64,000 nucleotides of DNA from Sediminispirochaeta bajacaliforniensis DSM 16054. GTDB lineage: Bacteria; Spirochaetota; Spirochaetia; DSM-16054; Sediminispirochaetaceae. The stretch is from contig NZ_KB899406.1 in the NCBI RefSeq assembly GCF_000378205.1, positions 124,001 through 188,000 on the forward strand, given 5' to 3'. The notes under the pieces are model-generated. The model searched no databases. It was not told the DNA's origin and worked only from the letters and a program-made list of their open reading frames with translations. Positions within the stretch are counted from its first letter, which is position 1. Each line of letters opens with the position of its first letter. The translations under genes were made by a program, and so were the position numbers. Positions 8,274 to 52,031 of this stretch are shown piece by piece.

Positions 8274-8285
8274 ACCATGAGGTTA

Positions 8286-8305: not shown

Positions 8306-8315
8306 CTCCTATCTT

Positions 8316-20162: not shown

Positions 20163-20294
20163 TTATTGGGCCGTATTGGCCCAAAGCATCCCGTCCCTTC
20201 TGCCGAACTCCTCGATCCGGGTTGTACATTCCAGGTTCGGGGAGTCATCGGTGATCAACCTATCTACTTCATCAAGTGAATTACGTTTTATGTA
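20163..20294 (-). pseudogene. C-terminal remnant of a DeoR-like regulator
   Basis: On the minus strand, 43 codons run into a TAA with the text SLDEVDRLITDDSP, like the C-terminal end of DeoR-family regulators. The frame has no start and ends exactly at the TA that borders a repeat-element end at 20295, with nothing related beyond it. The element apparently inserted here and the rest was lost. A 7-bp hairpin (20166-20184) lies inside the remnant and may now serve as the phytase operon's 3' end. Confidence 0.45.
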
Positions 20295-20334
20295 GTGTTC
20301 CGAATCCTGGTGGGTGAAGAAGCACACTTTCTAT
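20295..20334 (+). repeat. MITE-like element, copy A (one end only)
   Basis: Begins after a TA with GTGTTCCGAATCCTGGTG and continues about 25 bp (TGAAGAAGCACACTTTCT), similar to the matching end of copy D. The other end is missing within the next few hundred bases, so this is a truncated copy. Confidence 0.7.
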
Positions 20335-20408
20335 TCCCGTAAACAGCCAAAAGGCTGTGCTATATTAGATCGATGTTAGATTTATGTTAAAATTTTGTTA
20401 ATCATAAT

Positions 20409-24606: not shown

Positions 24607-24764
24607 ACGGCCAGGGAATCCTGGTCCACTTCGAGATATTAAAGGGACACAATTCTCTTTTCCGCAGTCAATTAAAAGTCAAACTATGGGAAAAAGTAAG
24701 CACCGACATAAAAGCAAGGATTTTACCGGCAAAAGGGCATGCGTACCACCAGGATTCGGAACAC
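24607..24764 (+). repeat. MITE-like element, copy B
   Basis: The right end, CACCAGGATTCGGAACAC followed by TA, is intact; the left end keeps GGAATCCTGG (24615-24624) but has lost its outer bases. The interior aligns with the reverse complement of copy D over more than 110 bp, including CAGTCAA, CAAACTATG and TTTTACC blocks. About 158 bp. Confidence 0.7.
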
Positions 24765-24800
24765 TAAGTAAGATAGAAGATATTTTGTACTACGGCGTAT

Positions 24801-25436
24801 CTAATCCGATATGCTTACCGCCTTGCGAAGCATGCTGTCGTCGGTAATTTGTTTGAGCATGAAATCGGCAACATCGGATCTGGATATTTTTGCTGTAACA
24901 GATTGATCATAAGGGGTAAGCGTACGGTACCTGCCGCTTTTCGGGCCGTTTGTCAGAATCGCGGCCCGGACAATAGTCCAATCCGTATTGCTGTCCATGA
25001 TATAGCCTTCCTGGATTTCCTTATCAGCGAACATATTCCTGAGCAGAAAGGGGATCATAAACCGGTTGTAGAGCGGACCCAACCTATTTTGCTGGGCCTT
25101 GCTTTCTCCTATCCCTATTGCCGACATACAGATAAACCGTTTGACTCCTGTATCTTCTGCAGCACGGAGGATGTTTTTCGTTCCATCCGAAATAATGGTA
25201 TTCTTTTTGAGAATTCTTATTCCGAGAGCCGAAAGGATGACATCCTGTCCTTGGACTGCCGGTATGACCGCCTTGTAATCAAGAATGTCTCCCTGCACAA
25301 TCCTGAGATTTCTGTGTGCCAGCTTTACTTTATCGGGATTGCGTACAAACGCCGTTACAATATGGTTCTGTTCAAGGGCCTGTGTCATAATCTCATGGCC
25401 CGTGCCGCCGGTTGCGCCGAATATCAGTAGTTTCAT
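24801..25436 (-). CDS. NAD(P)-binding Rossmann-fold oxidoreductase (atypical SDR)
   Basis: About 211 residues. The N-terminal dinucleotide motif is GATGGTG, and the later FICMSAIGIG and DWTIVRAAILTNGP stretches match the NAD(P)H-binding/YwnB-like group of atypical SDRs. The start at ATG 25436 has GGAGA six nt upstream and overlaps the stop of the flavodoxin/ferredoxin gene (TGATG), so they are co-translated. Likely electron transfer or stress response; the substrate is unknown. Confidence 0.85.
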   Translation of the reverse strand: MKLLIFGATGGTGHEIMTQALEQNHIVTAFVRNPDKVKLAHRNLRIVQGDILDYKAVIPAVQGQDVILSALGIRILKKNTIISDGTKNILRAAEDTGVKRFICMSAIGIGESKAQQNRLGPLYNRFMIPFLLRNMFADKEIQEGYIMDSNTDWTIVRAAILTNGPKSGRYRTLTPYDQSVTAKISRSDVADFMLKQITDDSMLRKAVSISD

Positions 25437-26314
25437 CATATGTCTCCATACAGTGCGGATGCAGGTTCTTCCAGCTTTGCAAAGCCGTCGTTGAGCCGTT
25501 TCCTTCCCATTTCTATGTAGGGATGTTCAATGGCACCTGCGGGACAGGTATGAAAGCATTCCGCACAGAGTATGCAGCTACTGTTGTCCCGATGCATGAC
25601 AATTTCCCCATTTGCATATGTGAACATATCGACAGGACAGGCAGATATACATTTCTTGCACTTGGTACATTTCGCAGCATCGATACGCACTTGCTTAAAG
25701 TTTCTATGGAGTTTTTCCTGACTGAAGATTTTAAACAAAAACCGCTCTTTGGGCGGGGCGTATTTGAATGCTTTGGACTGGTCTTCAGCATCTTTCCCTT
25801 TAGTGTGAATAATAGAAATAATGTGTTCCACGGCTTCGGCTATGAGCTTTTCTTCTTCCGGGCCTGGCTTGTCCTCATAGATCACATTGGCATACGTTGA
25901 CGTAAGGGTGTGCTTTGCGGCTATCTTGATTCCGAGTATTGATTTGTACCCTTTCTTTCTTAGTTTCTTCCCCATTTCTTCAAGGGCGACGCTGCTGTGT
26001 ACGCCTCCATAGCTTACAAAGGGCACTGCAAGATTCGAATGCGTCTCATCGGGAACAGGTAGGGCCCCGATTGTGTGTAAAATCGTATGTTCGACATGGC
26101 CGGCATACAGCGGACCTCCTATACAGAGGAGATCATATTCGCCAAGCGCTTTCTCAAGAGTCTCTTTGATATGCTCACCATAGAGAAACTCCTGTTTGCC
26201 AGTTATGTTGATGAGTCTGACGATGTTGTTTTTTTTCTTGAAACCCTCTTCAATCTTCTTGGCGACGTTTAGGGTATGCCCTGACGGGCTGAATACCAAT
26301 ATGGAAACATTCAT
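25436..26314 (-). CDS. EFR1-type flavodoxin/ferredoxin fusion protein
   Basis: About 292 residues. Flavodoxin-like domain at the N-terminus (ILVFSPSGHTLNVAKKI; IGGPLYAGHVEHT), then a C-terminal two-cluster ferredoxin: CTKCKKCISACPVD and CILCAECFHTCPAG give two sets of four Cys. It would pass electrons between FMN and [4Fe-4S] centres in the cytoplasm. Start at ATG 26314, nine nt after AGGAGG; an upstream start at 26377 overlaps the MarR gene. It lies 2 nt after that regulator, in one operon. Confidence 0.92.
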   Translation of the reverse strand: MNVSILVFSPSGHTLNVAKKIEEGFKKKNNIVRLINITGKQEFLYGEHIKETLEKALGEYDLLCIGGPLYAGHVEHTILHTIGALPVPDETHSNLAVPFVSYGGVHSSVALEEMGKKLRKKGYKSILGIKIAAKHTLTSTYANVIYEDKPGPEEEKLIAEAVEHIISIIHTKGKDAEDQSKAFKYAPPKERFLFKIFSQEKLHRNFKQVRIDAAKCTKCKKCISACPVDMFTYANGEIVMHRDNSSCILCAECFHTCPAGAIEHPYIEMGRKRLNDGFAKLEEPASALYGDI

Positions 26315-26316
26315 GT

Positions 26317-26775
26317 CTATTGTCCCTCCTTTGATAGATCTGGTAGATAGTGCTCGATGACCTCCATGAGCCCGCATATAGCCTCCGTTTGCTCTTTGGT
26401 TAGGCCGTCGAGGTATTCGACTATTTTGTCATGTAGCTCTTTATGAAATATCCTATGGTTGTCGAAGGCAATTTCTCCTTCTTCCGTTAATTTCAGATAG
26501 ACTTCTTTCTTGTTGATCTCTTTTTTGTACTTACGAATGAGCTTTTTCTTTACGAGTTTGTCTGCAATCTGTGTGACCGCACCGTTTGTGATCCCCAGCT
26601 TTTGTGATAACCGGGATGCGTTTATCCCTTCTCCTGGTTCTATGGCATCGATAAAATGGATTTCCGACTGATGCAGCAATTGACTTGTTCCGAAAGGACG
26701 GGGTTTTTTATCATTGGAGTTGATTCGACTCTGTATCTTTGCTGCCTGTCGCATTATCCTCAAGCTCTCTTCCAT
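26317..26775 (-). CDS. MarR-family transcriptional regulator
   Basis: 152 residues with a central winged helix (NASRLSQKLGITNGAVTQIADKLVKKKLIRKY) and dimerisation helices. Probably an effector-released repressor. Two copies of TTTAGTAACTAAA sit at its promoter, one inside a 29-bp perfect inverted repeat. It heads the operon with the flavodoxin/ferredoxin and oxidoreductase genes, and faces the paired ABC genes, which it may also control. Confidence 0.92.
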   Translation of the reverse strand: MEESLRIMRQAAKIQSRINSNDKKPRPFGTSQLLHQSEIHFIDAIEPGEGINASRLSQKLGITNGAVTQIADKLVKKKLIRKYKKEINKKEVYLKLTEEGEIAFDNHRIFHKELHDKIVEYLDGLTKEQTEAICGLMEVIEHYLPDLSKEGQ

Positions 26776-26807: not shown

Positions 26808-26835
26808 GTATTATCGCTTTCACTGTTGCTGTCAA
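26808..26835 (-). promoter_or_regulatory. Promoter of the MarR operon
   Basis: On the minus strand, TTGACA (26835-26830) and TAATAC (26813-26808), 16 bp apart. The -35 overlaps the distal palindrome and the region after the -10 holds the proximal one, so repressor would cover both sides. Confidence 0.6.
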
Positions 26836-26861
26836 TATGTTTTAGTTACTAAAACATATTG
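26833..26861. promoter_or_regulatory. MarR operator, distal site (29-bp perfect inverted repeat)
   Basis: Two 14-bp arms around one central base, with core TTTAGTTACTAAA (26841-26853). It is long for a MarR site, so two dimers may bind, or the divergent ABC promoter may also be governed from here. Confidence 0.75.
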
Positions 26862-27059
26862 TTTTAACAAGTTCGTACCAATTGGGGAATCAAGGTATTG
26901 AATTTGATTTAAAATTAGGTTAAACAAATTATATTAGGATTGGCGTATTATGCCGTTAAGCTCCATGTAGAGGAAACGTCAATGTTGGCGATTTGCAACG
27001 ATCTATCTTTGGGAAGAGGGATACATCGGAAAAAATAGTTGATCAGGAGGTCAGGTACG

Positions 27060-28859
27060 ATGCCTGAAAAGAAAAAAGAATTTGTCTTACAGCGGTTTTT
27101 ACCTTATATGGGTAAAAAGAAAGCGCTTTTGCCTTTGGCTTTGGTATTATCGGGAATTTCCGCAATACTCAATATCCTGCCTTTTGTGCTGGTATGGTAC
27201 ATAACACGCAATATCCTCTCAAACCCTTCGGCGGTTGACATGACCCGTGTCGGCTTCTATGCATGGGTAGCGTTTGCCTGTGCCTTGGGCGGTGTTGTCT
27301 TTTACTTCTGTGCGCTTATGAGCTCCCACCTTGCTGCCTTTCGGGTGGAGGTAGGTATGCAGAAGATCGGCATGCAAAAGATCCTGTCGATGCCGCTGGG
27401 CTTTTTCGATAAGCACTCCAGTGGAAAAATCCGAAAGATCGTAAACGACGGGGCCGGTACGACACACACCTTTTTGGCGCATCAGCTTCCTGATATGGCG
27501 GGCAGTATCATCTCTCCCATAATCCTTTTGGTGCTGCTGCTTGTCGTGGACTGGAGGATGGGGCTTGCGTCCCTTTTCCCCATTATTCTGGGATTCATCA
27601 CCATGAAATTCATGATGAGCTCTCAGGGAAAAACGTTCCAAAAGAAGTATTTCGATTCTCTGGAGGAGATGAGCTCGGAATCCGTGGAATATATCCGCGG
27701 TATTCCGGTTGTGAAAACCTTCGGACAAAGTATTTTTTCATTTAAGCGTTTTCACGACAGCATTATCCGATATAAGGAGATGGTGCATGCCTATACACTG
27801 CTCTGGCGAAGGCCCATGTCGTTTTATACCGCGATTATGGAATCCGCCGGCTTCTTTTTAATTCCCATTGCAATCCTATTAATCGGAAGGGGAGCCGAGA
27901 TCCCTCTCGTGCTGGCCGATTTCGTCTTTTACATGTTGATTTCTCCTATCTTTACCCTGCTCTTGATGCGTTCCATGTATTTTCAGCAGAATGCAATGAT
28001 CGCGGAACAAGCCATCGACAGACTGGATAAGCTTTTACAGTATCCGGGCCTTGGCTATAGCGAAATCACAAAAGAAATTATGAATCACCGTCTGGAATTC
28101 AAGGATGTTGTATTTTCCTACGAAGGCAGTGATCAGCCCGCCCTTGATGGTGTCAGCTTTACACTACACGAAGGCGAAACAATTGCCCTGGTCGGCGCAT
28201 CGGGGGGAGGCAAAACAACCATTGCCCGGCTGGCTGCGCGTTTCTGGGATGTGGATGAGGGGGAAATCCTGGTCGGAGGGATAAATGTCAAGGATATCCC
28301 CAGGAAAGAACTGATGGATACGATCTCCTTTGTTTTTCAAACCACGCGACTGTTTAAAGGTCCTTTACGGGAAAATATCGTTTTTGGAAAAAAGAATGTT
28401 GATGACGATACCATTTCCCAGGCCATCGATTCCTCACAGTCGAGAGAAATAATTGACAAACTTCCGGATGGACTGGACACGGTAATCGGCTCCAAAGGAA
28501 CCTATCTATCGGGCGGAGAACAGCAGCGGATTGCCCTTGCCAGAGCCATAGTCAAAGATGCCCCCATCGTGCTTTTGGATGAAGCCACTGCTTTTGCAGA
28601 TCCGGAAAACGAGCACCTCATCCAGAAGGCTCTGAAAGAGCTTAGCCGGGGAAAGACGACACTGATGATTGCCCATCGGCTTACTACCGTACAACATGTC
28701 GACCGGATTCTGGTGATTGAGCGTGGAAGGATCGCGGAGGAAGGCTCTCACCAACAGCTGCTGGATAACGGCGGGATCTATAAGACCATGTGGGATGAAT
28801 ATCAAAGGTCCGTTGCCTGGAAAATCGCAGCCAAAGAGACTGTGGGGATAGGAGAATAA
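27060..28859 (+). CDS. ABC exporter half-transporter (membrane + ATPase), first of a pair
   Basis: 599 residues. About six membrane spans (residues 25-300), then a nucleotide-binding domain: Walker A GASGGGKTT, signature LSGGEQQR, Walker B VLLDEATAF and switch His IAHR. The D-loop region reads FADPENE instead of the usual SALD. Start at ATG 27060 after AGGAGG; a TTG at 27039 is less likely. The next gene starts 1 nt after its stop, so the two almost surely form a heterodimer. The GxSGGGK Walker A resembles the IrtAB/YbtPQ group, but cargo is unknown. Confidence 0.9.
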   Translation: MPEKKKEFVLQRFLPYMGKKKALLPLALVLSGISAILNILPFVLVWYITRNILSNPSAVDMTRVGFYAWVAFACALGGVVFYFCALMSSHLAAFRVEVGMQKIGMQKILSMPLGFFDKHSSGKIRKIVNDGAGTTHTFLAHQLPDMAGSIISPIILLVLLLVVDWRMGLASLFPIILGFITMKFMMSSQGKTFQKKYFDSLEEMSSESVEYIRGIPVVKTFGQSIFSFKRFHDSIIRYKEMVHAYTLLWRRPMSFYTAIMESAGFFLIPIAILLIGRGAEIPLVLADFVFYMLISPIFTLLLMRSMYFQQNAMIAEQAIDRLDKLLQYPGLGYSEITKEIMNHRLEFKDVVFSYEGSDQPALDGVSFTLHEGETIALVGASGGGKTTIARLAARFWDVDEGEILVGGINVKDIPRKELMDTISFVFQTTRLFKGPLRENIVFGKKNVDDDTISQAIDSSQSREIIDKLPDGLDTVIGSKGTYLSGGEQQRIALARAIVKDAPIVLLDEATAFADPENEHLIQKALKELSRGKTTLMIAHRLTTVQHVDRILVIERGRIAEEGSHQQLLDNGGIYKTMWDEYQRSVAWKIAAKETVGIGE

Positions 28860-28860
28860 T

Positions 28861-30594
28861 ATGATCAGTTTTTTTCAGAAGACATACGCGATGTCCGAGA
28901 AGGGCGCGAAAGATCTTCGCGGCGCGATTATCTGGACCATTGTAATGGATCTCAGCTTTATGTTCCCGGTGGTCCTTGGGTTTAAATTCTTGGATGAATA
29001 CCTGGGCGTTCTTTTATATGCTTCAGACAGCCGGGGCAGCAGCATCCTCTCTTATGTTGTTATGGCCCTCATATTGTTTTTCGTGATGCTTATCATTACC
29101 TATTTCCAATACGATTCGGCCTACACCAGAATCTATGAAGAAAGCGCTCGTCGGCGAATCAGCCTGGCGGAAACCCTGCGGAAATTACCTCTGGCTTTTT
29201 TCGGAAAAAAGGATGTCGCCGATCTAAGTTCCACCATAATGGAAGATGCCACACAGATAGAGCAGCTTTTTTCTCATACCGTTCCTCAGCTCTATGCCGC
29301 AATTGTCACCATGATCATTATGGGGGTGATGCTGTTTCTTTACAACTGGCAGCTCGCTCTTGCCGTATTCTGGGTGGTCCCTGTTGCCGCCTTGGTTTTT
29401 TATCTTTCGAGAAAATTCCAAAGCAGATCGCATGTGCTGTTGTATAACTTGAAGAGAGGTATCTCCGATAGTATTCAGGAGGGGCTGGACGCCATCCATG
29501 AAATAAAATCCTATAACAGAGAAGAGGCCCGTTCTCTTGTCATTAATGAGGAATTGGACAATTACGAAGAAACATTGATAAAATCGGAGCTTTTGACAGG
29601 CGCTCTTATCAACGTTTCGTATGCAATATTGAAGCTTGGCCTTCCCAGTGTCATCCTGGCCGGCGCGTATCTCGTATCAACCGGGACGATAAGCATCTTT
29701 ACCTATCTTGTTTTTCTTGTTGTTGCGGCACGGATCTATAACCCGATTATGGAGGCCCTGAACAATTTTGCGGCACTGATATATCTAAATGTGCGTATAG
29801 ACCGAATGAAAGAGATGGATCATATGCCCCGGCAGGAAGGTCGTACCGCATTCCAGCCGAAGAATTATGATATCGAATTCAGCAATGTCGACTTCTCCTA
29901 CCAGGATGATATGCAGACCTTGAAACATGTCTCCTTTACTGCAAAGCAGGGCGAAGTAACGGCGCTTGTCGGTCCCTCCGGCGGAGGGAAAAGTACCGTT
30001 GCCAAGCTATCTGCGCGCTTCTGGGATATTAACAATGGTCGCATAACCCTGGGAGGTGAGGATATTTCCCTCATTGACCCTGAAACCCTTCTGGAGAATT
30101 TTTCAATCGTCTTTCAGGATGTGACCCTGTTTAATGCAAGTGTCATGGATAACATACGCCTTGGAAAAAAAGAGGCTAGTGATAAAGAAATCTTACAGGC
30201 TGCACACTTGGCTCAATGCGACGACTTTGTCCGCAGGCTTCCGCAAGGATATGGCACCTTGATCGGAGAAAACGGGGAAAAATTGTCCGGAGGCGAACGG
30301 CAGCGCATATCCATAGCCCGGGCCATACTGAAAGATGCGCCGATTATCCTGCTGGACGAGGCCACGGCATCACTGGATGCGGAGAATGAGAGCAAAATTC
30401 AGAGTGCGCTGAGCGAACTTATAAAAAACAAAACGGTTTTGATTATCGCCCATCGCATGAGGACCGTTTCCGGGGCAGACAAGATTGTTGTCATTAAGAA
30501 CGGATCTATAGCCGAAACAGGCGCACCGTGGGAATTGGAGAAGCAGCAGGGGATTTTTTCATCAATGGTAAAAGCACAATATCAGAATAATTAG
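28861..30594 (+). CDS. ABC exporter half-transporter, second of a pair
   Basis: 577 residues: membrane domain, then ATPase with GPSGGGKST, LSGGERQR, ILLDEATASLDAENE and IAHR. This subunit has the regular D-loop, unlike its partner, as in asymmetric heterodimers with one degenerate site. Ends 30 bp before a strong terminator. Regulation by the nearby MarR protein is inferred from the shared intergenic region. Confidence 0.92.
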   Translation: MISFFQKTYAMSEKGAKDLRGAIIWTIVMDLSFMFPVVLGFKFLDEYLGVLLYASDSRGSSILSYVVMALILFFVMLIITYFQYDSAYTRIYEESARRRISLAETLRKLPLAFFGKKDVADLSSTIMEDATQIEQLFSHTVPQLYAAIVTMIIMGVMLFLYNWQLALAVFWVVPVAALVFYLSRKFQSRSHVLLYNLKRGISDSIQEGLDAIHEIKSYNREEARSLVINEELDNYEETLIKSELLTGALINVSYAILKLGLPSVILAGAYLVSTGTISIFTYLVFLVVAARIYNPIMEALNNFAALIYLNVRIDRMKEMDHMPRQEGRTAFQPKNYDIEFSNVDFSYQDDMQTLKHVSFTAKQGEVTALVGPSGGGKSTVAKLSARFWDINNGRITLGGEDISLIDPETLLENFSIVFQDVTLFNASVMDNIRLGKKEASDKEILQAAHLAQCDDFVRRLPQGYGTLIGENGEKLSGGERQRISIARAILKDAPIILLDEATASLDAENESKIQSALSELIKNKTVLIIAHRMRTVSGADKIVVIKNGSIAETGAPWELEKQQGIFSSMVKAQYQNN

Positions 30595-31625: not shown

Positions 31626-31678
31626 AGCAAGGAATTTCACCGGAAAGACGGCATGAGTATCACCAGGATTCGGAACAC
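31626..31678 (+). repeat. MITE-like element, copy C (right end fragment)
   Basis: The end CACCAGGATTCGGAACAC plus TA matches copy B, and about 35 bp inward (GCAAGG, TTTCACCGG, GGCATG) still aligns. The left part is lost. It ends 5 nt from the rpsD stop codon. Confidence 0.65.
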
Positions 31679-31683
31679 TACAC

Positions 31684-32301
31684 TTACTTAGAATAGAACT
31701 CGATAATTGCCTGGAGATCTCCCACGGGCGTTGCCGCTTCAAGCGACGGATGTGCATCATATGTAGCAAGCAGCTTGTCATTATCCACACTTAGCCATGG
31801 TGTTCTTGCCGTTCCCGAGCTTACAATCCTTTCTCGTATGATCGACTGGATATTTTTCTTATCCCGCACAGCAATTTGATCTCCAGGCTTCAGGCGTGTC
31901 GACGGAATATTCGTCGATTGTCCGTTTACCTTGAAGTGCTTGTGGCTCACCATCTGCCTGGCTTGCTCTCTCGATACGGCCCAGCCGAGACGATAGATAC
32001 TATTATCCAGACGCGATTCGAGTAACTGGATAAAAATCTCATCGGTGACGCCCTGCTTTCTTTTTGCTTCAAAAAAGGTGGTACGGAACTGTTTTTCGGA
32101 GAGGCCGTAACAGTATCGGACCTTCTGTTTCTCAAGAAGCTGCATACCATAATCCGATATCTTCCTTCCTCTCCTGTTTTTCGGAGATTTTCCCGGTCCA
32201 TTGGTTTTTTTTTTGAGTATCTTGTCGTACTTGGGGTTTCCAAAGAGATTGACCCCCAGCCTTCTGACTATTTTTCCTCTTGGCGGCTTTTTTTGCGGCA
32301 T
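31684..32301 (-). CDS. rpsD: 30S ribosomal protein S4
   Basis: 205 residues. S4 N-terminal domain (RLGVNLFGNPKYDKIL) followed by the S4 RNA-binding domain (SRLDNSIYRLGWAVSREQARQMVSHKHFKVNGQ). It binds 16S rRNA early in assembly. The N-terminal Cys4 zinc site of some S4 proteins is absent (C-minus type). The gene stands alone here and not in the usual rpsM-rpsK-rpsD-rpoA operon. Confidence 0.96.
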   Translation of the reverse strand: MPQKKPPRGKIVRRLGVNLFGNPKYDKILKKKTNGPGKSPKNRRGRKISDYGMQLLEKQKVRYCYGLSEKQFRTTFFEAKRKQGVTDEIFIQLLESRLDNSIYRLGWAVSREQARQMVSHKHFKVNGQSTNIPSTRLKPGDQIAVRDKKNIQSIIRERIVSSGTARTPWLSVDNDKLLATYDAHPSLEAATPVGDLQAIIEFYSK

Positions 32302-32372
32302 ATAGACTACTCCCTTTCTCTTTCTTAATAGCTAAAGGTAATAAAAAAAGCTTTGGCTATCGATTCTATTGC

Positions 32373-32401
32373 AGAGTAATATATACTAAATTAGTAGTCA
32401 A
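32373..32401 (-). promoter_or_regulatory. Candidate rpsD promoter
   Basis: On the minus strand, TTGACT (32401-32396) and TACTCT (32378-32373), 17 bp apart. The spacer holds the palindrome ACTAAATTAGT (32385-32395). Confidence 0.4.
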
Positions 32402-32457
32402 TTCCTATACTTGCCTATTTTCGTGTTCTTTATGCTTTTTTGCGGGGTAGCGAATGC

Positions 32458-32485
32458 TTGACAAGTATGTATAGTGGCTATACAT
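32458..32485 (+). promoter_or_regulatory. Promoter with internal palindrome before the MarR/Suf operon
   Basis: TTGACA (32458-32463) and ATACAT (32480-32485), 16 bp apart. A 19-bp palindrome, ATGTATAGTGGCTATACAT (32467-32485), fills the spacer and covers the -10, a typical repressor position. Probably the binding site of the MarR protein encoded next. Confidence 0.65.
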
Positions 32486-32518
32486 TAGTCTTGGTTAATT
32501 TAGTTAAAGAAGACTACT

Positions 32519-32956
32519 ATGGATGTACTGATTGAAAATTTCATGTGCCTTATAGAAAAGATTGCCGCTACCAGCAAGTGTGCCCAGCGATTTGATACGG
32601 ATATTGAAATATACCGTAGCGAGATTCATGTTATAAAGCTTCTTGGTGATTATTCGGCTTTGCATGTGTCGGAAATCGCAAGGAAATTTGGGGTTACAAG
32701 GGGGGCTGCTTCACAGATTCTGAAGCGTCTCGAAAAAAAAGGATTAGTGAGAAAGTATCCTGACGAAAGCAACAACACCAAGATACTGGTTTCTCTTACC
32801 GATAAGGGACATACAGCCTACCACAGTCATGAAGAGTACCACAGACGGCATGATGGTGAATTCTTCACCTTTCTGGAAGGTCTGAATACGCATGATCTGA
32901 AAGTCATAGGGTCCTTTGTAGAGAAAATCGACAAAATGATGGGGAAACATGTTTAG
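32519..32956 (+). CDS. MarR-family regulator of the Suf genes
   Basis: 145 residues with the winged helix LHVSEIARKFGVTRGAASQILKRLEKKGLVRKYPDESNN. Its gene lies 35 nt before sufC, with one promoter upstream of all three genes and a palindrome between -35 and -10. Fe-S operons are usually controlled by Rrf2 proteins (IscR, SufR), so a MarR member here is unusual. Two Cys are present (one in MCLIE, one in KCAQ), but a cluster-binding role is not shown. Confidence 0.88.
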   Translation: MDVLIENFMCLIEKIAATSKCAQRFDTDIEIYRSEIHVIKLLGDYSALHVSEIARKFGVTRGAASQILKRLEKKGLVRKYPDESNNTKILVSLTDKGHTAYHSHEEYHRRHDGEFFTFLEGLNTHDLKVIGSFVEKIDKMMGKHV

Positions 32957-32991
32957 TTTCTCCTTCTCATCCTGATTATATAGGGGGAGAT

Positions 32992-33744
32992 ATGATTAAT
33001 ATCAACAACCTGACGGTCGAAGTCGAGGGGGCGCGGGTTCTTCGCAACATTAATCTCGATATACCTGAAGGTGAAGTCCATCTATTACTGGGGCCCAACG
33101 GAAGTGGGAAAACTTCCCTGATGATGACCATTACCGGCTATCCCCAGTACAAAATTGTAGAAGGTAATATTTCCATGATGGGAAAGGATTTGGCTGATCT
33201 TGATATAACGGATCGAGCTCGACTCGGTATCGGTATGGCCGAACAACGGCCTCCGTCAATCGACGGGGTTAAACTGAGAATGCTGCTTGATTATCTCTTG
33301 GCGGATCATCCGGAAAGAAGAAACGATATACGTAAATTGATTGCAACGACGAATATGGAATCTTTTCTGGACCGAAATATCAATGAGGGGCTCTCCGGAG
33401 GAGAAATAAAGAGATCGGAAATCCTCCTTCTCATAAGCAGACAGCCTCTTTTTGCAATGCTTGATGAACCTGATTCGGGTGTTGATATCGATGGTCTGGA
33501 GCTTCTGAGTTCAATGATAAACACCTTGTTCTCACCGATGCGTGATATTCCTGCAAAGCGCAGAACCGGATTGATCATAACCCACTCGAACCGAATGGCA
33601 GAGTATATTCATGTGGATAAGACTCATGTGATGCTTGGTGGGGAGCTTATCTGCTCCGGAAATCCGCAGATCATTATGAACAAAATCGTTACATCGGGAT
33701 TTGGATCCTGTGTGGAGTGTAAAAGAAATGAAAGCATCTCATAA
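32992..33744 (+). CDS. sufC: Fe-S assembly ATPase SufC (SmsC type)
   Basis: 250 residues. ABC ATPase with GPNGSGKTS, signature LSGGEIKRSE and Walker B AMLDEPDSGVD, the SufC form of these motifs. With SufB-like protein it forms a scaffold that builds Fe-S clusters. The stop overlaps the next start by 17 nt. No sufS, sufU, sufE or sufD is nearby, so this is a minimal two-gene set as in anaerobes and archaea. Confidence 0.93.
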   Translation: MININNLTVEVEGARVLRNINLDIPEGEVHLLLGPNGSGKTSLMMTITGYPQYKIVEGNISMMGKDLADLDITDRARLGIGMAEQRPPSIDGVKLRMLLDYLLADHPERRNDIRKLIATTNMESFLDRNINEGLSGGEIKRSEILLLISRQPLFAMLDEPDSGVDIDGLELLSSMINTLFSPMRDIPAKRRTGLIITHSNRMAEYIHVDKTHVMLGGELICSGNPQIIMNKIVTSGFGSCVECKRNESIS

Positions 33745-34864
33745 TAGAATCGAAGGGCAGCTTCAGGCCCTCGAACCTGAAGACAGAGAGGCTCTTTCGG
33801 AAGTAGCCGTAACAAGTGCAGAAGAGAATAGATCCGGGACATTTGTGTTGAAAGATGCCTCTCCTGTCTGTTCATGTTCCTACGTGGATGGAATTGAGCT
33901 CTTGCCGATAGCCGATGCACTGGAGACCTACGACTGGCTGCGGGAAAGGTACTATTGGGGGCTGATCCCTGAGGAAACGAGTCCCCTTTCCCAAAACAAG
34001 ACCTTCTCTGAGAAACCGCTCGGCTATTTTCTCAGAGTCAAGGAGGGAGAAAAGGCCAAACTTCCTTCGCAGGCGGCCCTCTATATGACCGGATCTCTTG
34101 GCAGGCAGCTGCTTCATAATGTGGTGATCCTTGAAGAGGGTGCCGAGCTTGAACTCATCACCGGTTGTGTATCAAACCCTTTCATGAAAGGGGGAGAGCA
34201 TATCGCGGTGAGTGAGACATACGTCGGCAAACATGCCAAGCTGATCAATACCATGATCCATAGCTGGAGCCCCAATGTTCGGGTGATGCCTCATTCCGCG
34301 ACCATTGTGGATACCGGCGGAAGCTATGTGAGCAACTATATATCGCTTCGTCCTGCGGGGATCATGGAATCCAATCCCGTAACATATCTGAAAGGAGCGG
34401 GGGCATCAGCGAAGTATTTCAGCATCATTCTTGGCTCTGAGGCTTCCATGATTACCTTAGGGGGAGATGTGTATCTCAATGCGAAGGGCACAAGCGCAGA
34501 GATAGCCCATCGTGCGGTTTGCACGGGGGGGAAGATCATACAAAAGGGCTTGCTTATCGGAAATGACGAATGCCATGCCCATGTAGATTGTGCCGGGATG
34601 CTGATTACCCCCGGATCAGACGGCTATATCGAATCCATTCCCGGTTTGCGCTCTCATCATGAAGAGGCCCATATGAGCCATGAGGCGAGCATAGGAAAAA
34701 TCGCTCCCCAACAGGTACAATACTTGATGGCCCACGGACTGGAGGAAAGGGAAGCTATTTCGATGATCGTTCGGGGCTTTCTTGATGTGGATATTCACGG
34801 ACTCGGTCCCGAGCTGGACAGAAGGATTTCCGAGATCGCCGAGCTTGCGGGCCATGGCGAGTAA
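33728..34864 (+). CDS. sufB: SufB/SufD-family scaffold protein (SmsB type)
   Basis: 378 residues from the ATG at 33728 (GGAG about 9 nt upstream); shorter than classic SufB. The C-terminal beta-helix part has the family landmarks HRAVCTGGKIIQKG, the Cys-containing NDECHAHVDC and SHEASIGKI, where His-Glu match cluster-assembly residues of SufB. Works with the SufC gene it overlaps. Being the only B/D member, it probably forms a B2C2 complex. Confidence 0.9.
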   Translation: MKASHNRIEGQLQALEPEDREALSEVAVTSAEENRSGTFVLKDASPVCSCSYVDGIELLPIADALETYDWLRERYYWGLIPEETSPLSQNKTFSEKPLGYFLRVKEGEKAKLPSQAALYMTGSLGRQLLHNVVILEEGAELELITGCVSNPFMKGGEHIAVSETYVGKHAKLINTMIHSWSPNVRVMPHSATIVDTGGSYVSNYISLRPAGIMESNPVTYLKGAGASAKYFSIILGSEASMITLGGDVYLNAKGTSAEIAHRAVCTGGKIIQKGLLIGNDECHAHVDCAGMLITPGSDGYIESIPGLRSHHEEAHMSHEASIGKIAPQQVQYLMAHGLEEREAISMIVRGFLDVDIHGLGPELDRRISEIAELAGHGE

Positions 34865-34886
34865 CATTCGATGTAAGATAAACGTA

Positions 34887-35031
34887 GTGTTCGGAATCCT
34901 GGTGGTTTTTATGCCGTTTTGCTGGTAAAACACTTGGTTTTAGGCTGGTGCATGCTTTTCCTCATAGTTTGGCTTGTAGTTGACTGCAGAAAAAGAAATT
35001 GAGCTTCTTCAATCACCAGGATTCCGAACAG
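34887..35031 (-). repeat. MITE-like element, copy D (complete)
   Basis: 145 bp with both ends intact: GTGTTCGGAATCCTGGTG on the left and CACCAGGATTCCGAACAG on the right, flanked by TA on each side. The interior has no transposase. Placed on the minus strand relative to copy B. It sits between sufB and the riboflavin promoter, ending 20 bp before its -35. Confidence 0.8.
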
Positions 35032-35051
35032 TAGAAAAAGATAACAGGCCG

Positions 35052-35080
35052 TTGACAGATCTCCTGCACGGGTATACAAC
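35052..35080 (+). promoter_or_regulatory. Promoter of the riboflavin operon
   Basis: TTGACA at 35052-35057, with TATACA (15-bp spacer) or TACAAC (17-bp spacer) as -10. Transcription would begin about 20-25 nt before the riboswitch. Confidence 0.55.
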
Positions 35081-35106
35081 ATATCTATATTAATTATTGG
35101 ACAATT

Positions 35107-35238
35107 AGATTTTCGGGGCAAGGTGAGCCGTATTACGGCAATTCCTTACTGGCGGTAAAGCCCGCGACTTCCTCGTTTGAGGAACTGAACCGGTTAGATT
35201 CCGGTGCCAACGGTTATAGTCCGGATGGGAGAAAATCT
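35107..35238 (+). promoter_or_regulatory. FMN riboswitch (RFN element)
   Basis: Strong match to the RFN consensus in order: CGGGGCAAGGTG, CTTACTGGCGGTAAAGCCCGCG, GAACCGGTTAGATTCCGGTGCCAACGGTTATAGTCCGGATGGGAGA. The P1 stem pairs AGATTTTC (35107-35114) with GAAAATCT (35231-35238). It binds FMN and stops riboflavin gene expression; a terminator follows about 75 nt later. Confidence 0.95.
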
Positions 35239-35313
35239 GAGTTGGGAAGTTCCTTTCCCGCTCACTGATACCAGATCCTTTTTTAGAACAGACGGCTTGT
35301 TTGTTCGTACCCG

Positions 35314-46127: not shown

Positions 46128-46745
46128 ATGAAACAGGATGATACCGTTACACGGCAGAGAATTCTGGTTTCCGGCAAGGAAGAGTTTTTGGAAAAGGGCT
46201 TTGTGCATGCTTCTCTGCGGACCATAGCAAAGAATGCGGGTGTCACGACCGGAGCCATCTATCTCTATTATGAAAACAAAGAGGCCCTTTTTAATGCCCT
46301 CGTTGCCGAACCGGTCCAAATGCTTCTGGGCGAGTACAGGCGTGTACAAGACGAATTTGCTTCACGTTCCCCGCAGCAACAATTGAACGTCATGCATGAG
46401 ATTTCGGAAGCGTGCCTCGAATGGATGATCGACCATATCTACGAGCATTACGATGCCTTTAAGCTTGTCGTCTGCTGTTCTACCGGCACCCGATATGCGG
46501 CATTCATCGAGCAGATGGTGGAGATCGAGGTGCGCTCCTCCTATAACTTTTTCGAAATCATGGAAGAGATGGGAAAGAAGGTGCGTCCCATGGATGACGA
46601 ACTCATCCATATTCTGGCGAGTGCACTTTTCTCGGGTTTTTTTGAGATCGTTGTTCACGACATGAATAAGGAAAAAGCCAAGGAGTATGTAGCCTGCCTC
46701 ATGGAGTTTTATGAAGCGGGTTGGGACCGATTGCTTGGCTTATAG
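46128..46745 (+). CDS. TetR-family transcriptional regulator
   Basis: 205 residues. TetR helix-turn-helix LRTIAKNAGVTTGAIYLYYENKEALFNAL near the N-terminus, then a helical ligand domain. First gene of a run leading through two ABC exporters, MATE and Feo genes; an inverted repeat overlapping its own promoter suggests autorepression. Ligand unknown. Confidence 0.92.
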   Translation: MKQDDTVTRQRILVSGKEEFLEKGFVHASLRTIAKNAGVTTGAIYLYYENKEALFNALVAEPVQMLLGEYRRVQDEFASRSPQQQLNVMHEISEACLEWMIDHIYEHYDAFKLVVCCSTGTRYAAFIEQMVEIEVRSSYNFFEIMEEMGKKVRPMDDELIHILASALFSGFFEIVVHDMNKEKAKEYVACLMEFYEAGWDRLLGL

Positions 46746-46784
46746 AGGTTTTTTATACGTTTTACCACAGGAGAAGCATACGAT

Positions 46785-48560
46785 ATGGGAGAAAAACAGA
46801 TGCAAAGCGGGTTTTCCCGCTTAAAGGAGTTGGCGGCCGGTCATAGGGGAAGCTACATTGCCTCGGTCGTCTTCGCGATACTTGGGGTGGCGGGAACCAT
46901 GGTTCCCTACATCGCTGTCTCGCACATCATCATCAAACTGATCGAGGGGCAAAGGAGCTTCGCTTTTTACCTTTCCTGGTGCGCCGTTGCCGCTTTAGGA
47001 TATCTTGCGAAGTCGGTATTCCACAGTATTTCCACGACCTTGTCTCACAAGGCGACCTTCGCCGTGATTTCGGAGGTTCGGTACAGAATCGCCGAGAAAC
47101 TTACAAGGGTTCCCATGGGGTATGTACTCAATACCCCTTCGGGAAAGATAAAAAACAGCATGGTGGAAAAGGTGGACAGTATCGAACCGGCCCTGGCTCA
47201 TGTTCTTCCGGAGATGACATCAAATCTGCTGATCCCTCTTTGCATTGTCTGCTACCTTTTTGTTCTCGACTGGCGTATGGCGTTGATCTCCCTGATAACC
47301 CTGCCGATCGGAGCCCTCTGCTACATGGGGATGATGAAGGATTATGAGACAAAGTTCGGGAAGTATGTCGGGGTCAGTAAGCATATGAATGCCACAGCCG
47401 TGGAGTATATCAACGGCATAGAGGTCATCAAGGCCTTCGGCCGGTCGGCAAGCTCCTATGCCAAGTTTTCCAAGGCTGTTAGGGAGAATGCGGAGTATGG
47501 TCTTTCCTGGATGAAGGAGGTCCAGATCTACTTTGCCATGGGAATTGGCATCTGGCCCTCTGTCCTGATCGGTGTCCTGCCGCTGGGCTGTGTTTTTTAC
47601 ATGAACGGAAGCCTTTCCGCTCCAGTTTTTATTACCGTGATGATCCTTGCCCTTGGTATCGTTGCCCCCTTGCTTTCAGCTCTCTACTACACAGACGATA
47701 TCGCAAAGATCGGAACCATCATGGGGGACATTGGATCGCTCCTGGACGAAAAGGAGCTTATCAGATCCCGGATACCGGCAAAGCCCCAGGGCCTTGATAT
47801 CGAGCTTCGCAATCTTTCGTTCTCCTACGACAAGATAGAGATACTCCACAATGTCTCCTTATCCATCCCCGCCTTCAGTGTTACGGCCCTTGTCGGCCCA
47901 TCCGGCGGCGGGAAAAGCACCATTGCCAAGCTGATCGCCTCATTCTGGGACGTCGACGGCGGGAGTGTTTCAATCGGCGGCGTAGATGTGAGGAAGATTC
48001 CAAGCGAGCAACTGAACGATTTGATCGCTTATGTCGCCCAGGACACCTACCTCTTCGACGAGACGGTCCTGGAGAATATCCGCATGGGAAACCCAAAGGC
48101 CTCCGACGATGCGGTAAAGGCGGCGGCTCAATCCGCCGGTTGTCATGATTTTATCCTCGCCCTCGAACACGGCTACGATACCGTCGCAGGAGGGGCAGGG
48201 GGACACCTATCCGGCGGTGAACGCCAGCGGATTGCCATTGCCCGCGCCATGCTGAAAGATGCACCTATCGTCATTCTTGATGAAGCCACGGCCTATACCG
48301 ACCCGGAAAATGAGTCGGTGATTCAGTCCGCCATCGCAAAGCTGGTGGAGGGAAAGACCCTTATCGTTATTGCTCACCGTCTCTCCACCATAACCGATTC
48401 CGACCAGATTATCGTCATCGATCGGGGACGGGTTGCAGATTGGGGACAACATGAAGAGCTCCTTGCCTCGAGCCCCCTTTACCGGAGCATGTGGCAGGCA
48501 CATATCAGCGCCAAGGATAACGTAAAGGACAACGTATACGAGGAGGCCGCACATGTTTAG
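46785..48560 (+). CDS. ABC exporter half-transporter, first of a pair (iron-linked operon)
   Basis: 591 residues. Membrane domain (about 20-300) and ATPase with GPSGGGKST, LSGGERQR, VILDEATAYTDPENE and IAHR. The YTDPENE D-loop differs from the canonical SALD, as in the partner pair at 27 kb. AGGAG before the ATG. It overlaps the next gene by 8 nt, so the two form a heterodimer. Sequence type resembles IrtAB/YbtPQ exporters-turned-importers for siderophores; with feo genes downstream, metal or siderophore transport is plausible. Confidence 0.9.
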   Translation: MGEKQMQSGFSRLKELAAGHRGSYIASVVFAILGVAGTMVPYIAVSHIIIKLIEGQRSFAFYLSWCAVAALGYLAKSVFHSISTTLSHKATFAVISEVRYRIAEKLTRVPMGYVLNTPSGKIKNSMVEKVDSIEPALAHVLPEMTSNLLIPLCIVCYLFVLDWRMALISLITLPIGALCYMGMMKDYETKFGKYVGVSKHMNATAVEYINGIEVIKAFGRSASSYAKFSKAVRENAEYGLSWMKEVQIYFAMGIGIWPSVLIGVLPLGCVFYMNGSLSAPVFITVMILALGIVAPLLSALYYTDDIAKIGTIMGDIGSLLDEKELIRSRIPAKPQGLDIELRNLSFSYDKIEILHNVSLSIPAFSVTALVGPSGGGKSTIAKLIASFWDVDGGSVSIGGVDVRKIPSEQLNDLIAYVAQDTYLFDETVLENIRMGNPKASDDAVKAAAQSAGCHDFILALEHGYDTVAGGAGGHLSGGERQRIAIARAMLKDAPIVILDEATAYTDPENESVIQSAIAKLVEGKTLIVIAHRLSTITDSDQIIVIDRGRVADWGQHEELLASSPLYRSMWQAHISAKDNVKDNVYEEAAHV

Positions 48561-50307
48561 CATCATCAAGCACTTTTTTGCCTTTGCCGGGGACCACCGC
48601 AAAAGGTTGCAACTTGGAATCCTGTATGCCTTTCTTAATTCGATATTTCACGCCTTTCAGATCGGTGCTCTCTACATCGTGTTGATGGCGATTATCAATG
48701 ATGGGGTAACCAGCTCCACCGCCTGGACCTCCTTTGCGATCATGTTCGTCAGCTTGGTCGGCGGGATTGTTACAAAGGATGCCTCTACCATGGCCGATGC
48801 CCGGGGCAGTTTCCATCTCTGCGCGGACAAGCGTACGGAAATCGGGGATCGTATGAAGTATATGCCTATGGGTTATTTCAACAGCAACAGCCTCGGTTCC
48901 ATAACGGCAACGGTGACCAGCACCATGGAGGATATCCAGGATATTGCACCGAGGGTTCTCGATAAGACGATCCACGGCTTTATTCATGCTGCCGTCATCA
49001 CCATCATGATAACGGCCTTTGACTGGCGTATGGGGCTGATCGTCATCGCGGGAATCCTCTTTTTCCTCCTGGTCAATCTCCTCATGCAGCGTAAGGCAGA
49101 AGCGATAAGCCCTGCCCGTGTTGCCGCCCAGAGCGCTCTTGTTGGAGCGGTCCTCGAATATGTCCAGGGGATCGGCGTCGTTCGTTCCTTTAACCTTGCC
49201 AGAGAGGCCAATAAAACCATAGACCGGGCCATCGCCGAGTGTGAGAAGCAAAATATCGGGCTGGAGCTCGCCTTCATCCCTTTTATGTTTCTCCAGTCTC
49301 TTATTCTGAAACTTGCAAGTGTGGGTATTGTGATAGCCGCGATTTTCTTCTTTCTCGGTGGAACAATGGAGCTTTCCGTTACCCTGATGATGCTTGTTTC
49401 CGCCTTTCTTATCTACAGTCAGCTTGAAACCGCCGGCAGTATGTCGGCCCTGCTGAGAACCGTTGATTTGTCCATCAAGCGCGTTGAGGAAATCAATGGA
49501 ATTCCCCTTATGGATGAAGCGGGCAAGAGCATTGTGCCCCGGGATTATAGCATCCGGGGAGAGGAGGTAAGTTTCTCCTACGATCAAAAGAGGATCATCG
49601 ACAAGGTAAGTTTCGAAATTCCCCAGGGCAGCAGCGTTGCCATCGTTGGCCCTTCCGGCGGAGGAAAAACCACCCTCTGCAATCTCATCACCCGTTTCTG
49701 GGATGTGGATGAGGGGGCCATCACCCTCGGCGGAAGAAATATAAAGGATTATACCCTCGATACCCTGCTCGCCAATTTCAGTATGGTTTTTCAGCGGGTC
49801 TACCTTTTTAACGATACCATCGCGAACAACATAAAATTCGGGAATCCGGATGCGACCATGTCGGAGGTCCGGGAAGCGGCGCGAAAAGCGTGTTGCGATG
49901 ATTTCATCATGGCCCTCCCCGACGGCTACGATACGGTCGTAGGTGAAGCCGGAGCCACCATATCCGGTGGGGAAAAGCAGCGAATATCCATCGCCCGGGC
50001 CATATTAAAGGATGCTCCCATCATCATTCTCGATGAAGCCACCGCCAACGTCGATCCCGAGAACGAAAATAAACTCCAGGAGGCAATAACGGAGCTGACA
50101 AAGAATAAGACGGTCATCATGATCGCCCATCGTCTAAAAACGGTCCGTAATGCGGATCAGATATGGGTGCTTTCGGGCGGCAGGATGATCCAGCGGGGGA
50201 CCCACGACCGTCTCATGTCGGAGGGCGGCCTTTACGCCGACTTTATCGGTATGCGCGAGAAATCGATCGGCTGGAAGCTGGGGCAGATGGAAACTGCCTC
50301 GGTATAA
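48553..50307 (+). CDS. ABC exporter half-transporter, second of a pair (iron-linked operon)
   Basis: 584 residues, six-span membrane domain and ATPase with GPSGGGKTT, ISGGEKQR and IILDEATANVDPENE. Partner of the previous gene; the 8-nt overlap suggests coupled translation. The signature begins ISGGE and not LSGGE, a mild departure. Confidence 0.9.
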   Translation: MFSIIKHFFAFAGDHRKRLQLGILYAFLNSIFHAFQIGALYIVLMAIINDGVTSSTAWTSFAIMFVSLVGGIVTKDASTMADARGSFHLCADKRTEIGDRMKYMPMGYFNSNSLGSITATVTSTMEDIQDIAPRVLDKTIHGFIHAAVITIMITAFDWRMGLIVIAGILFFLLVNLLMQRKAEAISPARVAAQSALVGAVLEYVQGIGVVRSFNLAREANKTIDRAIAECEKQNIGLELAFIPFMFLQSLILKLASVGIVIAAIFFFLGGTMELSVTLMMLVSAFLIYSQLETAGSMSALLRTVDLSIKRVEEINGIPLMDEAGKSIVPRDYSIRGEEVSFSYDQKRIIDKVSFEIPQGSSVAIVGPSGGGKTTLCNLITRFWDVDEGAITLGGRNIKDYTLDTLLANFSMVFQRVYLFNDTIANNIKFGNPDATMSEVREAARKACCDDFIMALPDGYDTVVGEAGATISGGEKQRISIARAILKDAPIIILDEATANVDPENENKLQEAITELTKNKTVIMIAHRLKTVRNADQIWVLSGGRMIQRGTHDRLMSEGGLYADFIGMREKSIGWKLGQMETASV

Positions 50308-50322
50308 GGGAGATAGAAAACG

Positions 50323-51675
50323 ATGAACGACAAACGAGAGATGCTTCTGAATCAGGGCATGGGCAAACTTTTTGTTTCTCTGGCCCTTCCCGGCATGGCG
50401 GGAATGATCGTTATCGGACTCTACAATCTGGTGGACAGCATCTTTGTGGGCCAGTTTGTTGGACCTGCTGCGGTATCGGCGGTTGCCATGGGCTATGCGG
50501 TCATCCTTGTCAACCAGGCAATACTGAGCCTCTTCGCAACCGGTGCCTCCTCCCTCTTTTCCCGCGCCATGGGAGCGGGAGACCAGAAAACCATGGACGC
50601 CCTTTTGGGAAATGTCTTCTGGCCCGTGACCCTCTGCTCGCTTGTGCTGACCGTGATCACCTTTTCCTTTGCGCCGGAGATTTTGTTCGCCCTTGGCGCC
50701 AGGGAAGAGATTCTCAGCCTCGGAATTGATTACCTCAGGCTCTTATCGCTGGGCTTTGTCTTCGGTGCAGTGGGCCCCGCCCTGAACTTTTTGATACGAG
50801 CCGAGGGGCAGATGAAGACTGCCATGAAAATCATGGCTTTGGGCACCATTACCAACATCATCCTCGACCCCATTTTCATCAAGGTTTTGGGCATGGGAAT
50901 GGAGGGGGCCGCCCTTGCTACCATAATCGGGCAAAGCCTCTTTCTTTTTGGGGATTTTGCCCACTTCAAATCGAAACAAAGCAGTATCAATCTCAGCACA
51001 AAGAGTTTTCGAATCACTTGGCCGCTTATGCCCGAAATCATCAGGGTGGGATTTTCCGGGATGATCATGTCCCTTGCGGTAGCCATTCAGCTCTCCATCC
51101 TGCTTTCGCTCAGTTCTTCCTACAGCATAAACAGTAACATCGTCATGAGCACCGCCTTTCGGATCATGAGCTTCTTTTACATTCCGATCTTCGGAATTTC
51201 TTACGGTCTGCAGCCCGTGCTGGGCGCCAATTATGGAGCAGGCCGCTTCGATAGGGTAAGGGAGGCGTTCTGGTATTTCGGCAAGGTCGCTTCCGCCATT
51301 GCTGTGGGTATATGGCTCTTCTTTCAGCTTTTTGCTCCCTTCATTCTCTCATGGTTCATTACCGATGCAGAAATTGTTGCCGAAGGAAGCCGCCAATTTC
51401 GGCTTTTTCTCTCCAGTTTTCTTTTTTACGGTCTGATTGCCGTATTTATCATGCTTTTTATGGCACTGGGGAAGGCGGGAAAGGGTGCGTTGCTGACTCT
51501 GGGACGCCAACTGTTCTTTTTTATTCCACTGGCATTACTGCTCCCTTATATGTTCGGCGAGATCGGCTTGTGGCTTTCCTATCCCCTTGGCGATCTCTGT
51601 GTCGTTCTTTTCGGGATGATTTTGGTGCGTAGTGAACTAAAGCTGCTGAAGAGGCCCCATTATGCGGGACAATAA
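50323..51675 (+). CDS. MATE-family efflux transporter
   Basis: 450 residues, 12 spans in two six-span halves. The start (LFVSLALPGMAGMIVIGLYNLVDSIFVGQFVG) matches MATE/NorM members. Exports drugs or metabolites with a sodium or proton gradient. Between ABC genes and FeoC-like gene, overlapping the latter by 14 nt. Confidence 0.93.
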   Translation: MNDKREMLLNQGMGKLFVSLALPGMAGMIVIGLYNLVDSIFVGQFVGPAAVSAVAMGYAVILVNQAILSLFATGASSLFSRAMGAGDQKTMDALLGNVFWPVTLCSLVLTVITFSFAPEILFALGAREEILSLGIDYLRLLSLGFVFGAVGPALNFLIRAEGQMKTAMKIMALGTITNIILDPIFIKVLGMGMEGAALATIIGQSLFLFGDFAHFKSKQSSINLSTKSFRITWPLMPEIIRVGFSGMIMSLAVAIQLSILLSLSSSYSINSNIVMSTAFRIMSFFYIPIFGISYGLQPVLGANYGAGRFDRVREAFWYFGKVASAIAVGIWLFFQLFAPFILSWFITDAEIVAEGSRQFRLFLSSFLFYGLIAVFIMLFMALGKAGKGALLTLGRQLFFFIPLALLLPYMFGEIGLWLSYPLGDLCVVLFGMILVRSELKLLKRPHYAGQ

Positions 51676-51967: not shown

Positions 51968-52031
51968 GGAGATTTTTTTTGCGCTTAGTAGCATAGGCTA
52001 ATAAAGATAGTTGGATAATGGAGGTTGAAAG

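Follow-up and report, generated by a model that had tools for sequence, protein, structure and literature searches.

An SMS-like smsCB operon headed by a marR gene, a probable accessory to other iron–sulfur systems in Sediminispirochaeta bajacaliforniensis

Does a spirochaete that carries one gene for a SufC-like protein, one gene for a SufB-like protein and a regulator gene in front of them build its iron–sulfur (Fe–S) clusters with a minimal system, or does such an operon stand beside other machinery? The question is raised by a stretch of 64,000 nucleotides of Sediminispirochaeta bajacaliforniensis DSM 16054 (contig NZ_KB899406.1, positions 124,001–188,000), referred to below as the window. 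An earlier reading of its sequence, the original prediction, had described positions 32458–34864 as a minimal SMS-type Fe–S assembly system under a MarR-family protein. SMS, the SUF-like minimal system, is best known from methanogenic archaea and has been proposed as the ancestor of SUF; the name is said to have been given first by Garcia et al. The SMS part of the description is borne out by the SmsB tree, key residues and a cysteine motif, but the operon is not the minimal Fe–S system of the cell. It is probably a bacterial SMS that is accessory to SUF and NifSU-like systems, assembling its cluster on C-terminal cysteines of SmsC and being repressed by its own MarR protein.

The genes marR, smsC and smsB constitute one tight operon on the + strand, 32458–34864 of the window, with the following elements:

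32458–32486, + strand, sigma-70-type promoter TTGACA-17-TACATT, matching 10 of 12 consensus bases
32467–32485, no strand, perfect 19-bp palindrome ATGTATAGTGGCTATACAT, candidate MarR operator
32519–32956, + strand, MarR-family regulator of 145 aa (PF01047, 48.4 bits, Pfam cut-off 24.6)
32992–33744, + strand, SmsC/SufC-like ATP-binding cassette (ABC) ATPase of 250 aa; the best NCBIfam model is TIGR01978 sufC
33652–33720, + strand, codons of SmsC C221, C240 and C243 (CX18CXXC), candidate [4Fe-4S] site
33728–34864, + strand, SmsB/SufB-like scaffold protein of 378 aa from ATG 33728 (PF01458, 106.3 bits, cut-off 27)

As originally described, the operon encodes only a SufC-like and a single SufB/D-like protein, plus the regulator. 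The marR and smsC genes are 35 bp apart, and smsB overlaps smsC by 17 nt; the start of smsB was taken as ATG 33728, which lies within smsC with a GGAG ten bases 5′ of it, the first start in frame being TTG 33701. Translation of smsC and smsB is likely to be coupled. A consensus scan of the + strand found no terminator-like site between the operon genes; its sole + strand match is inside smsB. Among the reading frames next to the operon, no genes for a desulfurase, SufD, SufE/SufU or an Rrf2 regulator were recognised by eye, in agreement with the original account of a pair with no cysteine desulfurase nearby and of a MarR regulator in place of Rrf2.

Such genes are present elsewhere in the genome. 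The check named in the original prediction, a search for isc, nif and suf genes outside the operon, found three more systems:

contig C18, locus L005, full suf operon with genes for a SufT-like protein, SufC, SufB, SufD, SufS and SufU; SufT, SufS and SufU are assigned by eye, SufU being backed by a NifU_N match
contig C24, locus L090, a pair of NifS-like and NifU-like genes, the NifS-like one assigned by eye
contig C19, locus L006, a second SMS pair, of the Methanocaldococcus jannaschii type (MJ0034, E 5.7e-60; MJ0035, E 1.1e-60)

The SUFBD_core proteins are SufB and SufD on C18, the window SmsB and the SmsB of the pair on C19. Two Rrf2 proteins are encoded, on C21 and C7, contigs other than those of suf and both sms pairs. 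The window operon is therefore an addition, and the claim of minimality is refuted by the genome. Because the suf operon, the NifSU-like pair and the second SMS coexist with it, the window operon can be read as an accessory to them; that one genome combines all four is a new point. Compared with SUF of C18, the window operon has homologs of SufC and SufB and the key residues of SufB, but it is without SufD, SufS and SufU, its SmsB falls into another tree group, and the SufC of C18 is without the SmsC cysteines.

The SMS assignment is carried by the SmsB tree and the cysteine motif of SmsC. When the SmsB profile was compared with solved structures, Methanosarcina mazei 4dn7 gave E 1.2e-94, MJ0034 E 2.5e-24 and Escherichia coli SufB E 1e-18. 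The AlphaFold models of SmsC and SmsB are confident (mean predicted local distance difference test scores of 88.3 and 89.5, respectively), and the first match of the SmsB model in a fold search was again 4dn7, with a template-modelling score of 0.90 by query and 37% identity. This archaeal protein (429-aa chain) is the closest one to the window SmsB by both sequence and fold. Trees were made from 51 rows, and from 50 rows without the long SufD row. The rows included 29 of the 31 scan loci described below (L062 and L069 were cut), 15 loci from 29 match rows (10 of the SufB type and five of the M. jannaschii type), proteins of the genome itself and three PDB segments; the loci of the phylum draw, also described below, are not in the trees. 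Three groups appear: the window type with M. mazei 4dn7, the M. jannaschii type and SufB. In the 50-row tree, one branch with a support of 100 separates the 12 SufB rows from all others, another does so for the seven rows of the M. jannaschii type, and the 51-row tree is alike. The window type with 4dn7 (31 rows) requires two changes on the quick tree, but holding the group together gives the better likelihood and is not rejected (approximately unbiased test, p-AU 0.80, 50-row tree). The trees support a grouping of the window SmsB with archaeal-type SmsB, outside the SufB clade. According to the available part of PMC12442378, a study of Thermococcus SmsB likewise has two SmsB clades, one of them nearer SufB. 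The equivalents of E. coli SufB C254, C405, H433 and E434 are all present in the window SmsB (residues 147, 288, 318 and 319, counted from ATG 33728), and are found in 29, 29, 28 and 29 of 29 homologs, respectively.

SmsC has a Walker A motif, an LSGGE signature and a D-loop. It contains exactly three cysteines, C221, C240 and C243, all of them C-terminal. As the available parts of PMC12192291 and PMC12584684 describe, the SmsC of M. jannaschii and of methanococci bind a [4Fe-4S] cluster via three C-terminal cysteines in a CXnCXXC arrangement; C218, C237 and C240 of Methanothermococcus thermolithotrophicus share the spacing of 18. SMS of M. jannaschii is also reported to rescue, in anoxic culture supplied with sulfide, an E. 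coli strain that has neither isc nor suf (PMC12192291). The M. jannaschii SmsC2B2 complex (MJ0035/MJ0034, 9h78) resembles the window pair in its two genes, in CXnCXXC at the end of SmsC and in its folds. The window SmsB is longer (378 aa vs chains of 316–321), and the first cysteine of the window-type SmsC stands six columns past the M. jannaschii C218 site, in whose column Leu215 is found; C221 is on the other, second strand of the hairpin (model strands 210–215 and 218–223). The SufC of the same genome has none of the three cysteines, whereas the SmsC of C19 has its first cysteine at the C218 site, that pair being exactly of the M. jannaschii type. Cysteines were counted in 30 of the 31 loci (L062 was left out), and the structure alignments held 23 SmsC and 30 SmsB sequences, hand-picked. 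A cysteine occupies the C221 column in 26 of 30 homologs and stands one or two columns on in two more (L049, L055); G[YF]xxCxxC occurs in 25 of the 30, with longer spacing in five (Megasphaera, Phascolarctobacterium and kin). Since the number, position and spacing of cysteines vary among archaeal SmsC ends (PMC12192291, available part), the mismatch at the C218 site is not strictly defining. Judged from these alignments, the shifted cysteine is common to most of the window-type family; it is a new point and a variant within a known pattern.

Loci of the window type were found in Spirochaetota, Chloroflexota, Bipolaricaulota, Bacillota, Atribacterota and Promethearchaeota (31 loci, assigned by titles) in a scan of one genome per species that was limited by two short peptide patterns; in a draw of 296 genomes of the phylum, eight matched at E 1e-70. 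Immediately upstream of SmsB there is a SufC relative in all 33 loci checked (the 31 plus L012 and L013). Thirty-three genomes with the window type were compared for their other proteins. Canonical SufB is also present in 12 (in one with an internal stop), the window-type protein is the only SUFBD protein in 18, it is the only one and in two pieces in one, and two have the window and M. jannaschii types only. A NifU_N protein is found in 30 of the 33. Many of these genomes are metagenome-assembled genomes (MAGs), so absence is weak evidence. In a Lokiarchaeota MAG (L063), a window-type smsCB lies next to feoB and groups with bacterial rows, possibly owing to transfer between domains or to a binning error. 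Bacterial SMS is already in print, and the window operon is a variant within the known pattern: the available part of PMC12192291 has SmsCB models from Clostridium tetani, C. novyi, Dehalobacter and Syntrophus aciditrophicus, two-gene systems with cysteine-rich, variable SmsC ends, likened here to the window operon by their description.

Iron-uptake genes are among the neighbours of the operon. The relevant genes of the window are:

27039–30594, + strand, pair of ABC exporter-type proteins; three Sphaerochaeta-type loci have homologs of 53–58% identity upstream of smsCB
46785–51675, + strand, genes for two proteins of ABC exporter type (by eye) and one MATE protein, preceding the Feo genes
51662–51967, + strand, small cysteine-bearing protein, FeoC-like by eye
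52032–52259, + strand, FeoA-like protein, assigned by eye from its likeness to FeoA of L101
52260–54311, + strand, FeoB ferrous iron transporter, about 18 kb from smsB

Together with a TetR gene (by eye), the last four entries make up a cluster at 46128–54311. For the linkage test, the 69 strongest FeoB_N places (down to E 1.6e-24) were set against the SUFBD places; the weaker matches among those listed (the next having E 3.4e-18) were judged to be other GTPases and left out. Of the 34 places with a window-type gene (33 genomes), 4, 9 and 12 have FeoB within 5, 10 and 20 kb, respectively, where 0.24, 0.48 and 0.95 were expected from rounded genome size and FeoB number. Within 20 kb, FeoB was found at none of 12 SufB places and none of five places of the M. 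jannaschii type. The 12 linked places belong to Spirochaetota (six), Chloroflexota (four), Bipolaricaulota (one) and Promethearchaeota (one). FeoB or parts of it stand beside smsCB in five loci (L045, L050, L053, L057 and L063), three of which (L050, L053 and L057) also have a DtxR-FeoA-like protein; short contigs hide some FeoB, and that of L045 holds only a FeoB end. In genome G008, smsCB comes after genes for FeoA-FeoB, an ABC protein and a MATE protein and before genes for a flavodoxin and a DtxR protein; the Feo cluster of the window has an ABC protein, MATE and Feo in common with this G008 cluster. In G031 the order is FeoA and FeoB, then an ABC protein and smsCB. A separate observation concerns L053, a Spirochaetales MAG with FeoB-type genes on both sides of smsCB (1901–3138 and 5735–8324), the upstream one of which looks internally deleted. 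The recurrent linkage of this SMS type with feoB is a new point; a joint survey of SufBC/SMS and FeoB (PMC8351635) covers, in its available part, the presence of both and not gene linkage. This genomic company suggests a tie with Feo iron uptake.

The ABC exporter-type pair at 27039–30594 was considered as a part of the system and left as a neighbour. It is 2.4 kb off here, and its homolog in genome JB007 is on another contig; G008 has only a 37% homolog nearby, G004 only a 39% homolog on another contig, and G035 none at E 1e-90.

The promoter of the operon contains the palindrome ATGTATAG-TGG-CTATACAT with exact arms (32467–32485). The original prediction placed it between the −35 and −10 elements. 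It is indeed perfect and at the promoter, but not strictly between the two elements, occupying most of the spacer and five of the six −10 bases. The promoter match taken singly proves nothing, because the consensus scan found three promoter-like sites in 32300–35120 vs a mean of 4.5 in shuffled sequence. The palindrome by itself is weak, mildly unusual evidence, since, when the 217-bp upstream region was randomised 5000 times to first order, 284 of the versions (5.7%) also had a palindrome with 8-bp arms and a gap of up to 6; the 64-kb window has 22 distinct places of 8-bp-arm palindromes, counted among the 30 matches listed. It gains weight because it sits on the promoter and because genome G001, of the same genus, has both promoter and palindrome without a change, whereas 32401–32450 differs there in 11 of 51 aligned columns. 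The whole genome holds one exact copy, at this site. A search for a regulon with up to three mismatches gave 10 genome places vs 24 for a reversed control pattern, that is, no excess and no hint of a regulon; the nearest other copy (two mismatches, C34:16118) is inside an open frame of 534 aa. A smaller inverted repeat, TACTAAATTAGTA, lies 5′ of the promoter at 32384–32396. On these sequence features, control by MarR via the palindrome appears plausible and local.

The MarR protein reaches no NCBIfam cut-off and has three solved relatives at E 1e-6, including FabT (6jbx, E 1.5e-07) and AdcR (3tgn, E 9.5e-07). Its H37, H104 and H108 line up loosely with the zinc ligands of AdcR. Nothing was drawn from this as to metal sensing: FabT and a second MarR of the window share these histidines, so the likeness to AdcR is no proof of it. 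Cys10 and Cys21 are present in all three MarR orthologs and are candidate sensing residues. Among the titles and abstract openings of the literature matches examined, no MarR regulator of an SMS or SUF assembly operon was found, and a MarR head gene is a new point for an SMS operon. SufR, IscR and RisR of suf and isc are likewise described, in the available parts of their sources, as regulators encoded with an Fe–S assembly operon; here the regulator is of the MarR family.

In the mechanism considered probable, SmsB and the ATPase SmsC would form a heterotetramer scaffold, on which a [4Fe-4S] cluster would be built, at C221, C240 and C243 of SmsC, from ferrous iron and sulfide. The cluster would then be passed to apo-proteins under anoxic conditions. 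The MarR protein would probably act as an autorepressor of the operon, binding the palindrome that covers most of the −10 element and leaving it on a signal. The scaffold and cluster steps are proposed because of the archaeal systems and the residues kept, the MarR step purely because of the layout.

A number of observations weigh against this picture. In comparison with solved structures, SmsC scores E 4.8e-44 against Thermus thermophilus SufC, 7.4e-40 against E. coli SufC and 2.4e-38 against MJ0035, and in the fold search with its model four SufC chains precede the first SmsC; as SufC leads slightly by sequence and fold, the SmsC core is not specially SmsC-like. SmsC remains under the TIGR01978 sufC cut-off (198 vs 212.8 bits), and SmsB misses both the SmsB model NF052511 (133.5 of 650 bits) and the SufB model (130.3 vs 346.4), so no curated model claims either protein. 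The third cysteine, the equivalent of C221, is absent in two of 30 homologs (L053 and L057), and the M. jannaschii geometry cannot be copied, because C221 is on the other hairpin strand. As to iron, no FeoB lies within 20 kb at 22 of the 34 places, the Feo-linked genomes are partly related, the linked places are not fully independent, so that the tail probability computed for them is too small, and the link in the window is an 18-kb neighbourhood and not an operon. In Methanosarcina acetivorans, total Fe–S content was unchanged after deletion of both sufCB clusters (PMC10500019, available part). Lastly, a MarR of this kind adjoins smsCB at three of 34 loci (the window, L012 and L041, belonging to this genus and one other Spirochaetaceae), the view being limited at three of the 34 by less than 600 bases 5′ of smsC. 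Of six related genomes searched at E 1e-5, JB007 alone gave a MarR match; there, the 250 bases 5′ of marR contain no inverted repeat with 6-bp arms and a gap of up to 5, while the same scan recovers the site in the window and in G001.

The rarity of the MarR neighbour, the JB007 marR without such a palindrome and the share of random regions that hold one would suit an explanation in which marR is a chance neighbour and the palindrome serves another factor or none. We regard this as doubtful, though well worth keeping in mind: the operon begins with marR, the palindrome lies across part of the promoter and is unchanged in G001, and JB007, the third genome with this marR, likewise has the gene next to smsCB, at 65% MarR identity. 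The M. acetivorans result bears on a different alternative, namely that SmsCB, instead of being a general Fe–S factory, is a complex that handles iron/sulfide or holds clusters for a small number of clients and is switched on by MarR in response to some stress. The presence of three other Fe–S systems in the same genome and the Feo company are in its favour too. Against it are the scaffold key residues that are kept and the 18 of 33 genomes in which the window-type protein is the sole SUFBD protein found, with the reservation that MAGs are frequent among these genomes and that NifU_N occurs in 30 of the 33; on balance, this alternative seems unlikely. It is highly improbable that the pair arose by partial duplication of the suf operon, with loss of SufD and SufS, and now supplies SUF with spare parts. 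SufS, SufU and SufD are encoded elsewhere in the genome, so mixing would be possible, and the slightly better scores of SmsC against SufC structures than against MJ0035 fit a SUF origin, but SmsB is only 25% identical to SufB of the same genome and is in another tree group, so that the trees largely exclude a duplicate, and SmsC carries SMS cysteines missing from the SufC of this genome.

Several further elements accompany the operon in the window. Directly behind smsB lies a 156-bp element with terminal inverted repeats (34880–35035). A search that scored 40 of 92 candidates gave 55 genomic matches to it, and 17 of these, including this copy, are near full length with 69–100% identity; it is a dispersed repeat resembling a miniature inverted-repeat transposable element (MITE), and pieces of it are found at 24653–24769, 20293–20335 and 31635–31681. 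An FMN (flavin mononucleotide) riboswitch (RF00050, 98.8 bits, 35105–35240) precedes ribE, ribBA and ribH (by eye). Between the second marR gene (26317–26775, − strand) and the ABC exporter-type pair at 27039–30594, a palindrome with 14-bp arms, CAATATGTTTTAGT-T-ACTAAAACATATTG (26833–26861), is possibly an operator. The second marR adjoins a gene (25436–26377) whose product has 4Fe-4S ferredoxin domains; by eye, the front half of this protein is flavodoxin-like. In JB007, a protein of similar make by eye is encoded downstream of smsCB (L041, 4211–5035), its Fer4 match being only below the cut-off.

The experimental work on SMS met in the literature examined concerns archaea. A bacterium with two SMS types, SUF and a NifSU-like pair would allow a direct test of the role of SMS where it is not the sole system. 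A bolder and tentative idea, which we consider rather unlikely, is that the window type represents a distinct iron-coupled SMS branch of six phyla, with a re-arranged SmsC site supplied by Feo-imported Fe2+ and, in one spirochaete lineage, a MarR repressor that would sense iron, sulfide, an oxidant or the cluster via C10 and C21. The recurrent feoB link singles out iron supply for testing, and the shift of the cysteine amounts to a natural experiment on the possible sites of cluster assembly.

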